From: an uncultured Rhodobacter sp.
GTDB lineage: Bacteria; Pseudomonadota; Alphaproteobacteria; Rhodobacterales; Rhodobacteraceae
Direction of reading: 5' to 3'
DNA: 64,000 nucleotides
NCBI GenBank assembly: GCA_945952585.1
Contig: CAMFII010000001.1
Coordinates: 124,001-188,000, forward strand
Shown here: positions 58,560 through 63,820 of the stretch, in pieces
How positions within the stretch are numbered: position 1 is the first letter of the stretch
Layout of the letters: each line of letters begins with the position of its first letter
Program-made: the position numbers and the translations under genes
Notes under the pieces: model-generated
Databases searched by the model: none
What the model saw: only the letters and a program-made list of their open reading frames with translations
What the model was told of the DNA's origin: nothing

Positions 58560-58588
58560 GTGATCACGATTTTCAAACCCGTGATCAC
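58560..58588. promoter_or_regulatory. Paired GTGATCAC palindromes upstream of sdhC
   Basis: GTGATCAC occurs at 58560-58567 and again at 58581-58588, centres 21 bases apart (two helical turns), 169 bases before sdhC. The same pair with the same spacing occurs upstream of sucC at 63792-63820. It looks like a cooperative operator of a dimeric regulator of TCA-cycle genes. The site lies in the mch-sdhC gap; no clear -35/-10 was identified. Confidence 0.75.
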
Positions 58589-58619
58589 GCCATGATCGAT
58601 TTGCGCGACTCGGTTAGCG

Positions 58620-59651
58620 CTAGCGGGGCATCAGGGCCCAGTAGTCGAGATCCAGCAGAACCTCCGGCAGGTATTTCCCGTCTTCACCCTTCAGCGCAAA
58701 GGGCGCGGCGCCATGCTTGACCGCGACCAGCCGCAGCCGGACGGCACCCACGCCCGGAGCGGTGGTTTCTGCCTTGTCCAGCACCTCGGACCAGGCGCGC
58801 ACGGTGTCGCCGGCGAAGCACGGATTGGCATGAGCTCCGGCGTTCAACGCGACGATCATCTGCGCGTTTGCGAGACCATTGAAGCTCAGCGCGCGGGCCA
58901 GGCTTATGACATGGCCACCATAGATCAGCCGCTTGCCGTCTTCGCGCTGCGTCGCGTCGAAATGGACCTTCGCCGTGTTCTGCCACAGGCGCGTGGCCAG
59001 CATGTGCTCGGCCTCTTCCACGGTGACGCCATCGACATGGTCGATCCGCTCGCCTACCGCATAGTCGCTCCAGCGATGCGGCTCGCCCGCCAGTGCGAAG
59101 TCATAGCGGCTGAAGTCGAGGCCCTTTGGCACCACCAGTGCCTCAGGGGTGAGCGCAGGCGCCAGCTTGGGCACCACCGCCTCGGGCGGGGCCACGTCGA
59201 GCTGCTTCTTCCGCACCATGACCCAGCGCACATACTCCAGCACGGCCTCGCCGCGCTGGTTCAGCCCGCGGGTGCGTACATAGACCACGCCCGATTTGCC
59301 GTTCGAGTTTTCCTTCAGCCCGATCACCGTCGATTCCGAGCGCAGCGTATCGCCCGGCCAGACCGGGGCCAGCCAGCGCCCCTCGGCATAGCCAAGGTTC
59401 GCCACCGCGTTCAGGCTGATATCCGGCACCGTTTTGCCGAAGACGGTGTGAAAGGCGATCAGATCATCCAGCGGCGACGCGGGCAGTCCGCTGGACCGGG
59501 CGAATTCGTCCGAGGAGTAAAGGGCGTGCCGGGCCGGGTAGAGCGCGTGGTACAGCGCCCGCTCACCCCCTGACAGGGTGCGCGGCACGGCGTGGACGAT
59601 GGTCTCGCCCAGTCGGTAGTCCTCGAAGAAACGGCCCGGATTGGTCTTCAT
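58620..59651 (-). CDS. mch: Mesaconyl-CoA hydratase (2-methylfumaryl-CoA hydratase)
   Basis: Reversibly hydrates mesaconyl-CoA to beta-methylmalyl-CoA in the ethylmalonyl-CoA pathway. The 343-aa protein has two MaoC (hot-dog) domains and begins MKTNPGRFFEDYRLGETIVH, nearly identical to the Rhodobacter enzyme. The hydratase region FARSSGLPASPLDD is present, and GGHVISLARALSFNG lies in the second domain. ATG 59651 is supported by length. It is preceded by the DUF1737 gene with a 1-base gap, and followed by the sdh operator region. Confidence 0.96.
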   Translation of the reverse strand: MKTNPGRFFEDYRLGETIVHAVPRTLSGGERALYHALYPARHALYSSDEFARSSGLPASPLDDLIAFHTVFGKTVPDISLNAVANLGYAEGRWLAPVWPGDTLRSESTVIGLKENSNGKSGVVYVRTRGLNQRGEAVLEYVRWVMVRKKQLDVAPPEAVVPKLAPALTPEALVVPKGLDFSRYDFALAGEPHRWSDYAVGERIDHVDGVTVEEAEHMLATRLWQNTAKVHFDATQREDGKRLIYGGHVISLARALSFNGLANAQMIVALNAGAHANPCFAGDTVRAWSEVLDKAETTAPGVGAVRLRLVAVKHGAAPFALKGEDGKYLPEVLLDLDYWALMPR

Positions 59652-59652
59652 A

Positions 59653-59856
59653 TCAGAGTTCGCCCAGCTTGAGGTCGGGATGGTATTCGCCCGGCACATC
59701 CTTCACGACGGCCTGCCCGCAGCGCATCACATTGTGCGCAGCATCAAAGGCGTACGTCGGGCCGCCGTGCAGTTCCCACCCGGCATTCAGGGCCTTGGTG
59801 ACCTTGTGGCAGAAGGCCGAGGTGTCATCCTCGGACAGGAAGCGGTAAAGTTTCAT
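59653..59856 (-). CDS. DUF1737-family small protein
   Basis: A 67-aa protein with the DUF1737 pattern (KLYRFLSEDDTSAFCHKV, LNAGWELHGGP). The function is unknown. It overlaps the NnrU-like gene by 4 bases (59853-59856) and lies one base from mch, so all three are probably co-transcribed. No Shine-Dalgarno is clear. Confidence 0.8.
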   Translation of the reverse strand: MKLYRFLSEDDTSAFCHKVTKALNAGWELHGGPTYAFDAAHNVMRCGQAVVKDVPGEYHPDLKLGEL

Positions 59857-60410
59857 CCGTAGGTTCCGATAAAGGGGTTGTGACCAAGCCAGATGTGAAT
59901 TCCGGCAATGATGGCGAAAAGCACGACCGTGCCGGCAAGGTTCATCAGGTCGCCCTTCACACCTCGGCCATCGGACGGACGTGCCCAGGGGCCGGCGTGG
60001 TTGATCGCCGCCATGGCGACCACCGCCCACAGGCCGATGCCGCCGAACAGCAGGATCGAGGCCAGGTCTCCGTTCACCAGAAGATGCGCCACCGACCAGA
60101 CGACCGTGCCGATCAACATCGGATGGCGCATCCGGGGATAGAGCGAGCCCTTGGTGCCGCCGACCCCGAAAAGGAAGACCGAGATCAGCATCAGCAGGTT
60201 GTTCAGATGGCCCATGCCGGGAAATGGCGTATAGACCGGCACGAAGTCCGCCCCGCGGTAGCCGATCACCATCAGCACGACCGAAATGGCCAAGGCCAGC
60301 GCAACCAGCCCCTTGCCGGGGTCGCCCAATGCCGCCCGCTGCGCAGGGGCAATCCGCTTGAACAGGTGGGCCAACCACCACAAGACGATGCCGAGGATTA
60401 GGAGTGTCAT
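59853..60410 (-). CDS. NnrU-family membrane protein
   Basis: A 185-aa polytopic protein (about five helices) of the NnrU family: HPMLIGTVVWSVAHLLVNGD and WLAHLFKRI are characteristic. In some species NnrU supports nitrite and nitric oxide reduction; the family also includes isoprenylcysteine methyltransferase-like enzymes. Here no denitrification gene is nearby, so the role is uncertain. It begins at ATG 60410. Confidence 0.82.
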   Translation of the reverse strand: MTLLILGIVLWWLAHLFKRIAPAQRAALGDPGKGLVALALAISVVLMVIGYRGADFVPVYTPFPGMGHLNNLLMLISVFLFGVGGTKGSLYPRMRHPMLIGTVVWSVAHLLVNGDLASILLFGGIGLWAVVAMAAINHAGPWARPSDGRGVKGDLMNLAGTVVLFAIIAGIHIWLGHNPFIGTYG

Positions 60411-60449
60411 CGCTGCCTCCGATCAGGTTGCCAGGTCCTACCCCTGCAC

Positions 60450-62518: not shown

Positions 62519-62710
62519 CGCGACTACTCCCCCGACGAATCAGTTTGGCATACAATTGCATGCAGAAATCATCCTGACGCCGCGAGGTTTAGCGCAAACA
62601 ACAGCGGCAAAACAGCCCGATGGCGTCGCTGCTGCGCGGCAGGCTTGCGCGACAGGTTGCGAAGGACTACCCATCGCGGCGTCATTCAACCGGACCCGGA
62701 GACAGCACCC

Positions 62711-63673
62711 ATGTCCAGACCCAAGATTGCGCTGATCGGCGCAGGTCAGATCGGCGGCACCCTTGCCCATCTCGCCGCGCTCAAGGAGCTTGGCGACGTC
62801 GTTCTGTTCGACATCGCCGAGGGAACGCCGCAGGGCAAGGCCCTGGACATCGCCCAGTCGGGTCCGTCGGCCGGCTTCGACGCCGACATGTCGGGCACAA
62901 ACGACTACGCCTTCCTGCGTCGCGCCGATGTCTGCATCGTCACCGCCGGTGTGCCGCGCAAGCCGGGCATGAGCCGCGACGACCTCCTCGGCATCAACCT
63001 CAAGGTGATGAAGTCGGTCGGCGAAGGCATCAAGAAATACTGCCCGGACGCCTTCGTGATCTGCATCACCAACCCGCTCGACGCGATGGTCTGGGCGTTG
63101 CGCGAATTCTCCGGCCTGCCGCACAACAAGGTTGTCGGCATGGCGGGCGTGCTCGACTCCGCCCGCTTCCGCCACTTCCTGTCGGTCGAGTTCGGCGTCT
63201 CGATGAAGGACGTTTCGGCCTTCGTCCTCGGCGGCCACGGCGACACGATGGTCCCGCTGCCCCGCTATTCGACCGTCGGCGGCATCCCGCTGCCCGACCT
63301 GGTCGAAATGGGCTGGACCACGCAGGAGAAACTCGACGCGATCGTGCAGCGCACCCGCGACGGCGGTGCCGAGATCGTCGGCCTCCTGAAAACCGGCTCG
63401 GCCTTCTACGCCCCGGCGCAAAGCGCAATCGAGATGGCGGAAGCCTATCTCAAGGACCAGAAGCGCGTCCTGCCCTGCGCGGCCTATGTCGATGGCGCCT
63501 ATGGCCTGAAGGGCATGTATGTAGGCGTCCCGACCGTGATCGGCGCGAACGGCATCGAGAAGGTCATCGAGATCAAGCTGAACAAAGACGAGCAGGCCAT
63601 GTTCACCAAGTCGGTCGACGCGGTGAAGGGCCTTGTCGAGGCTTGCAAGGGCATCGACCCGACGCTGGCCTGA
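62711..63673 (+). CDS. mdh: Malate dehydrogenase (lactate-dehydrogenase-like type)
   Basis: NAD-dependent interconversion of malate and oxaloacetate. The 320-aa protein has the Rossmann [12 protein letters not shown], the substrate Arg in [11 protein letters not shown] and the catalytic His in [13 protein letters not shown] 62711 has CGGAGA upstream. A strong terminator follows, and sucC begins 270 bases later with its own operator, so mdh and sucC are separately controlled here. It links malyl-CoA-derived malate to the TCA cycle. Confidence 0.97.
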
Positions 63674-63696
63674 TCCGGGCAAAGCAACCGATCCAG

Positions 63697-63732
63697 AAAG
63701 GGCGGCCGGTGCGATCCGGCCGCCCTTTTTCA
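63697..63732 (+). terminator. Rho-independent terminator after mdh
   Basis: AAAGGGCGGCCGG (63697-63709) pairs perfectly with CCGGCCGCCCTTT (63716-63728) around a 6-base loop, and the second arm runs into further T residues. It ends mdh transcription about 25 bases beyond the stop. Confidence 0.92.
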
Positions 63733-63791
63733 TGCGCCGAGCTGAGTCGCGGCAGTCCGCAACACCGTTTGCGATAACAGAAATGCCAAAT

Positions 63792-63820
63792 GTGATCACA
63801 CTTTTCCAAACTGTGATCAC
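63792..63820. promoter_or_regulatory. Paired GTGATCAC palindromes upstream of sucC
   Basis: GTGATCAC at 63792-63799 and 63813-63820, centres 21 bases apart, lies 123 bases before the sucC start. It reproduces the site upstream of sdhC in sequence and spacing. The flanks are also extended to TGTGATCACA at the left copy. Probably the same regulator controls both operons. Confidence 0.75.

Follow-up and report, generated by a model that had tools for sequence, protein, structure and literature searches.

The window, a 64,000-nucleotide stretch of DNA from an uncultured Rhodobacter sp. (contig CAMFII010000001.1, positions 124,001 to 188,000 of the forward strand), carries two operons of the tricarboxylic acid (TCA) cycle, sdh and the beginning of suc, each preceded by two copies of the palindrome GTGATCAC, which is self-complementary and contains GATC. 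Both pairs have a 13-base spacer, so that the palindrome centres lie 21 bases apart, and we read them as putative operators of AkgR, a GntR/FCD regulator. The genes and operators are arranged as follows.

54014-54793, minus strand: sdhB, iron-sulphur protein
55804-57612, minus strand: sdhA, flavoprotein
57626-57997, minus strand: sdhD (Sdh_cyt)
58008-58391, minus strand: sdhC (Sdh_cyt)
58560-58588, minus strand: tandem putative AkgR operator of the sdh operon (distal palindrome 58581-58588, proximal palindrome 58560-58567, spacer 13)
63792-63820, plus strand: tandem putative AkgR operator of the suc operon (palindromes 63792-63799 and 63813-63820, spacer 13)
63943-64000, plus strand: start of sucC, the suc operon extending past the window end

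The sdh pair, which has sdhC on one side and the 3' end of a mesaconyl-CoA-hydratase-like gene on the other, is 168 bases from the sdhC ATG at 58391 on the minus strand; the suc pair stands between mdh and sucC, 122 bases from the sucC ATG (63943). A recheck of the window letters returned exactly the four palindrome positions and the 13-base spacers given in an earlier, sequence-only reading of this DNA. GTGATCAC occurs five times in the window, compared with a mean of 0.91 over 100 shuffles, none of which reached five. The fifth copy (34180-34187) is alone, lies within an open reading frame (33760-34854, plus strand) and is probably there by chance. Searched with spacers of 5 to 30 bases, the host genome of 3,910,532 bases holds pairs only at the sdhC and sucC places, in keeping with the earlier remark that no further pair was noticed in the window, and the reversed-pattern control gave no pair in that genome with the same spacers. 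From the base composition of the window, about 0.0004 pairs with the 13-base spacer (N13 pairs) are expected genome-wide by chance; set against chance, as that reading had advised, the pair is rare, with two observed and about 0.01 expected for spacers of 5 to 30.

The arrangement is conserved across the family. A GTGATCAC pair with a spacer of 5 to 30 is present once or more in 267 of 295 Rhodobacteraceae genomes, which represent 294 genera, while the reversed-pattern control was non-zero in a single one (G243); the spacer in the 75 forward places listed is 13 in 67, 12 in three and of another length in five. Outside the family, an N13 pair was found in two of 380 genomes from other families of the class, in a search of 385 genomes that matched in six and that included five family members, four with the N13 pair and one without. 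For 20 relatives, selected because both of their pairs sit on a single contig no more than about 10 kb apart, regions of 20 kb were compared; one of these spans only 14.7 kb, where its contig ends. With the host included, all 21 genomes have a pair 5' of sdhC, at 107-191 bases from the ATG, and 20 have one 5' of sucC, at 99-130 bases, sucC being unmapped in the remaining genome (L079). Absence from the promoters of relatives, which the earlier reading had named as evidence that would speak against it, is thus not what these chosen relatives display: the pair is kept at sdhC in 20 of 20 and at sucC in 19 of 20. In a second sample of 80 named contigs, taken for the regulator gene, a pair precedes sucC in all nine that hold the sucC start and at least 150 bases before it, and precedes sdhC in four of the five holding that region.

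Departures from the two-pair pattern take several forms. When the 32 genomes with at least three loose pairs were searched again at spacer 13, 21 had two pairs, five had three, five had one and one had none; in this search three GTGATCAC sites stand in register in G135, G191 and G285. Three or four copies in a row, with spacings of 21 and 26, occur 5' of sucC in L138 (19903-19952), L143 (20188-20263) and L149 (20180-20234). A third N13 pair in G042 (contig C16, L348, position 1994) lies 5' of fumC, another TCA gene, and suggests that fumarase sometimes joins the AkgR regulon. One N13 pair of G238 (contig C3) falls inside a coding frame, and G276 has three pairs, one 5' of an sdhC-like frame, one 5' of a solute-binding-protein gene and a third without gene assignment. 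The 2.6-Mb genome of G265 contains ten loosely spaced GTGATCAC pairs, two of them with spacer 13. A scan of viral contigs for sdhB gave zero matches.

The regulator of both pairs is most likely AkgR, which we take to be RSP_0981. The excerpt of PMC6365646 compared here identifies GTGATCAC among AkgR binding sites, and that of PMC4344238 gives RSP_0981, of the GntR family, as a predicted regulator of sucCD, sdh and the 2-oxoglutarate dehydrogenase genes; AkgR is favoured because both match, with GTGATCAC as operator and the sdh, sucCD and 2-oxoglutarate dehydrogenase operons as targets. The sequence-only reading had named both CceR and AkgR, and in these excerpts the published motif and targets fit AkgR, whereas the CceR motif differs. 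A GntR domain search of the host genome gave 24 matches, 20 of them above the cut-off, among which the akgR candidate has GntR (PF00392) and FCD (PF07729) domains, both above their cut-offs.

196965-197612 of contig C1 (genome coordinates), minus strand: akgR candidate, GntR and FCD domains, 3' of the suc operon

The candidate lies 67 bases past lpd, which closes the suc operon, and is on the opposite strand; its best matches in relatives, among the rows listed and with the host gene excluded, are 71-88% identical. Presence of akgR was defined as a best E-value below 1e-60, a cut set after the table of E-values had been viewed, no genome falling between 1e-59 and 1e-75. Of the 295 genomes, 260 have both pair and gene, 23 have neither, seven have the pair only and five the gene only, a disagreement in 12 genomes (one-sided Fisher p 1.7e-23, uncorrected for kinship). 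Two of the gene-only genomes (G040, G291) have a sucC pair with one mismatch, and in the other three (G147, G155 and G166, 71-92% complete) a close sucC was not found. At the sucC promoter of nine of the 23 genomes lacking both, the best place has five to seven mismatches in 16. Middling akgR matches (about 1e-31 to 1e-59) occur in four pair-bearing genomes (G019, G033, G114, G273). In five of the 80 named loci (L124, L127, L132, L141, L145) sdhB is 1.4-5.3 kb away from the candidate, and in 20 the candidate shares its stretch with sucC, placements that fit the RSP_0981 locus number; in the Cereibacter loci L121 and L140, however, neither sdhB nor sucC is found within 10 kb of the candidate. 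Motif, targets and co-occurrence together support well a GntR/FCD regulator common to both operons, a shared dimeric regulator being what the earlier reading had proposed, and we put the probability that both pairs are operators of AkgR, acting as an activator of sdh and suc, at about 0.85.

Where the sdhC promoter can be recognised, its distances from the pair differ by roughly whole helix turns. In the host, the elements are these.

58496-58501, minus strand: putative sdhC -35 element (GTGACA), with the proximal palindrome 58 bases away
58474-58479, minus strand: putative -10 element TATTCA of sdhC, giving a pair-to-TA length of 111

In the host and its 20 chosen relatives, the interval between the proximal palindrome and GTGAC, presumably the -35 element, measures 57-60 bases in 16 promoters, 78-79 bases in two and 48 bases in one, and three of these 19 promoters are without a TA, presumably of the -10 element, exactly 16 bases on; in L074 and L076 no GTGAC was seen in the sdhC stretch inspected. 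A family-wide pattern designed after these 21 promoters had been viewed (pair, gap of 42-72, GTGAC, 15-18, TA) matched in 143 of the 295 genomes, and a gap of 73-103 added five more, of which the G256 match is at sucC and was excluded, leaving 147 lengths. These fall at 100-101 (six), 109-114 (125), 121-124 (12) and 130-132 (four), with none between, and none of 200,000 random draws matched the 22 minor lengths in phase agreement, genomes being taken as independent. A poorly resolved tree was built from 85 AkgR proteins of genomes chosen by available coordinates, 17 of the 22 genomes with a minor length and 68 of the remaining 125. On it the length class changes 13 times, and the length steps therefore arose several times, although well-supported branches alone force fewer changes, six for the main class versus the rest. 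Such clustering suggests activation from one face of the helix, and the position of the pair 5' of the -35 element, together with the phasing, would agree with activation by AkgR. Phasing was assessed at sdhC only, no clear -35 element having been seen at sucC among the 21 promoters.

The palindrome also occurs at akgR itself. In the 85 family genomes chosen for the tree, an exact GTGATCAC lies within 120 bases 5' of akgR in 53, against about 0.1 expected by chance on rough arithmetic from the single-site frequency; for 51 of the 53 the position relative to the predicted start is -28 to -10. A second set of 109 akgR loci (110 minus L191, near a contig end), which includes some species twice and has 25 loci in common with the 85 genomes, gave an exact palindrome within the same distance in 28, all at -23 to -10, and four more with one mismatch, while 77 have none within 120 bases even with one mismatch. 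In most listed sequences having TTGAC, the palindrome sits at about the distance of a -10 box after it, and because of this position over the -10/start region autorepression of akgR appears likely. In G187, two palindromes 5 bases apart stand 43 bases 5' of the akgR match.

The GT-N4-AC form of GTGATCAC is usual for GntR dimers. Each palindrome would bind one AkgR dimer, leaving two adjacent dimers separated by two helical turns, and the fixed 21-base spacing agrees with cooperative binding. From the pairs, AkgR would aid RNA polymerase at both operon promoters, those of sdhC and sucC, and so jointly raise succinate dehydrogenase, succinyl-CoA synthetase and 2-oxoglutarate dehydrogenase. At sdhC it would act from a fixed helix face, such that evolution keeps only distance changes of about whole turns, and in many relatives it may repress its own gene through the palindrome over the -10/start region. 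We lean slightly towards this fuller picture, in which AkgR would be a nearly dedicated two-operon switch with touching dimers, face-keeping activation of sdhC at distances that drift by whole turns, and self-repression over the -10 box.

Several observations weigh against these readings. Only a single palindrome precedes sdhC in L132, G069 has no N13 pair in the spacer-13 search, and host akgR has no GTGATCAC within 120 bases 5', the best place having three mismatches. Seven genomes carry the pair without a good akgR match (G019, G033, G096, G114, G256, G264, G273), six of them 73-93% complete and G114 100%. Conversely, pair-less G054, G101, G122, G157, G195 and G281 have a middling akgR match (E 6e-32 to 4e-58), and 24 of the 28 pair-less genomes contain matches to the pair with at most two mismatches somewhere, placed relative to genes at sucC only, compared with one of 28 for the reversed control. 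As to the phasing, besides the after-the-fact design of its pattern, which covers only 147 of the 295 genomes, the period is loosely fixed (R 0.877 at 10, 0.886 at 10.5 and 0.881 at 11), and the 130-132 class stands 1.7-1.9 turns from the main class rather than two. The candidate is a putative orthologue of RSP_0981.

The cooperative element of the mechanism has an alternative, that the two palindromes are bound independently and the 21-base spacing is kept only so that both face the polymerase, without dimer contact. Promoter phasing alone would favour whole-turn spacing, and a single palindrome is common at akgR; yet the spacer of 13 in 67 of the 75 listed places, which is never one turn more or less (23 once, in G042), is better explained by dimer contact, and we regard independent binding as unlikely, if worth keeping in mind. 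Assignment of the pairs to AkgR rather than to another regulator was weighed against a GntR/FCD paralogue, L040 (contig C5, 222638-223348, minus strand), which belongs to the same family and has a lone GTGATCAC 100 bases 5' of its own start. Since a search of 69 other genomes turned up no orthologue of it (best E 1e-36), while the pairs are family-wide, L040 was ruled out as the shared regulator; it is the akgR candidate, not L040, that tracks the pair across genomes, and binding of the pairs by some such other regulator seems very improbable.

The excerpt of PMC4344238 compared predicts that CceR (RSP_1663) controls TCA genes, sdh and mdh among them, and CceR could on that ground be thought to bind the pairs. 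Its published motif there, [AGT]GTT N6-8 AAC[ACT], does not fit GTGATCAC and is absent at both pairs, and CceR, to which we give next to no credence as the pair binder, was set aside for this difference. The sites resembling its own are separate.

58613-58624: CceR-like palindrome GTTAGCGCTAGC, 5' of the sdh pair, one mismatch to a presumed CceR consensus, published motif unmatched
62586-62600: CceR-like site GGTTTAGCGCAAACA, 110 bases 5' of mdh, fitting the published motif
62711-63673, plus strand: mdh, with GTGATCAC absent upstream
63767-63778: weak CceR-like palindrome GTTTGCGATAAC, 5' of the suc pair, two mismatches to a presumed CceR consensus, published motif unmatched

The earlier observation that mdh lacks a GTGATCAC site is borne out in the window, where mdh has the CceR-motif match at 62586 instead. 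This site is symmetric, and mdh stands between both putative AkgR operons. The published motif matches in the window only at 32216 and 62586; it is degenerate, several chance matches per window being expected on a rough estimate, and only the position of 62586 is suggestive, a placement in keeping with the predicted mdh target in the PMC4344238 excerpt. Finally, that the pairs are a structural or methylation element, as a self-complementary sequence with GATC might suggest, is scarcely credible, given that they usually number two copies per genome at fixed promoters, occur in only two of 380 genomes outside the family, and are phased to a promoter and linked to a DNA-binding protein.

Throughout the Rhodobacteraceae, pairs bound by AkgR would be a signature of what controls the succinate part of the TCA cycle, and the sdhC promoters would offer a set of natural variants for how activator distance and helical face govern transcription; if the reading is true, they amount to a natural face-of-helix experiment across more than 100 genera.

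The motif, the regulator and the targets were known. The AkgR regulon of Rhodobacter sphaeroides resembles the present system in its GntR-family regulator, in GTGATCAC and in the targets sdh, sucCD and 2-oxoglutarate dehydrogenase, but the literature excerpts compared, among which the original description of AkgR does not figure, mention the palindrome and no tandem 21-base pair, phasing or akgR site. Among the literature matches listed, to which the founding AkgR paper does not belong, the pair as a near-fixed two-operon signature, the sdhC phasing and the akgR site were likewise not found. The closest solved relative by sequence, McbR (PDB 4p9f, E 1.1e-23), is a different regulator. CceR, too, is predicted to act on genes of central carbon metabolism, in its case sdh and mdh among others, and differs in belonging to the LacI family and in its motif, according to the same excerpt of PMC4344238. 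PS417_07240 of Pseudomonas simiae, a gntR-like gene whose product is 32% identical to AkgR, carries GTGATCAC at positions -47 to -40 relative to its start codon, but there, in the excerpt of PMC6365646, a single palindrome is described and the control proposed is that of a deoxyribonate cluster.

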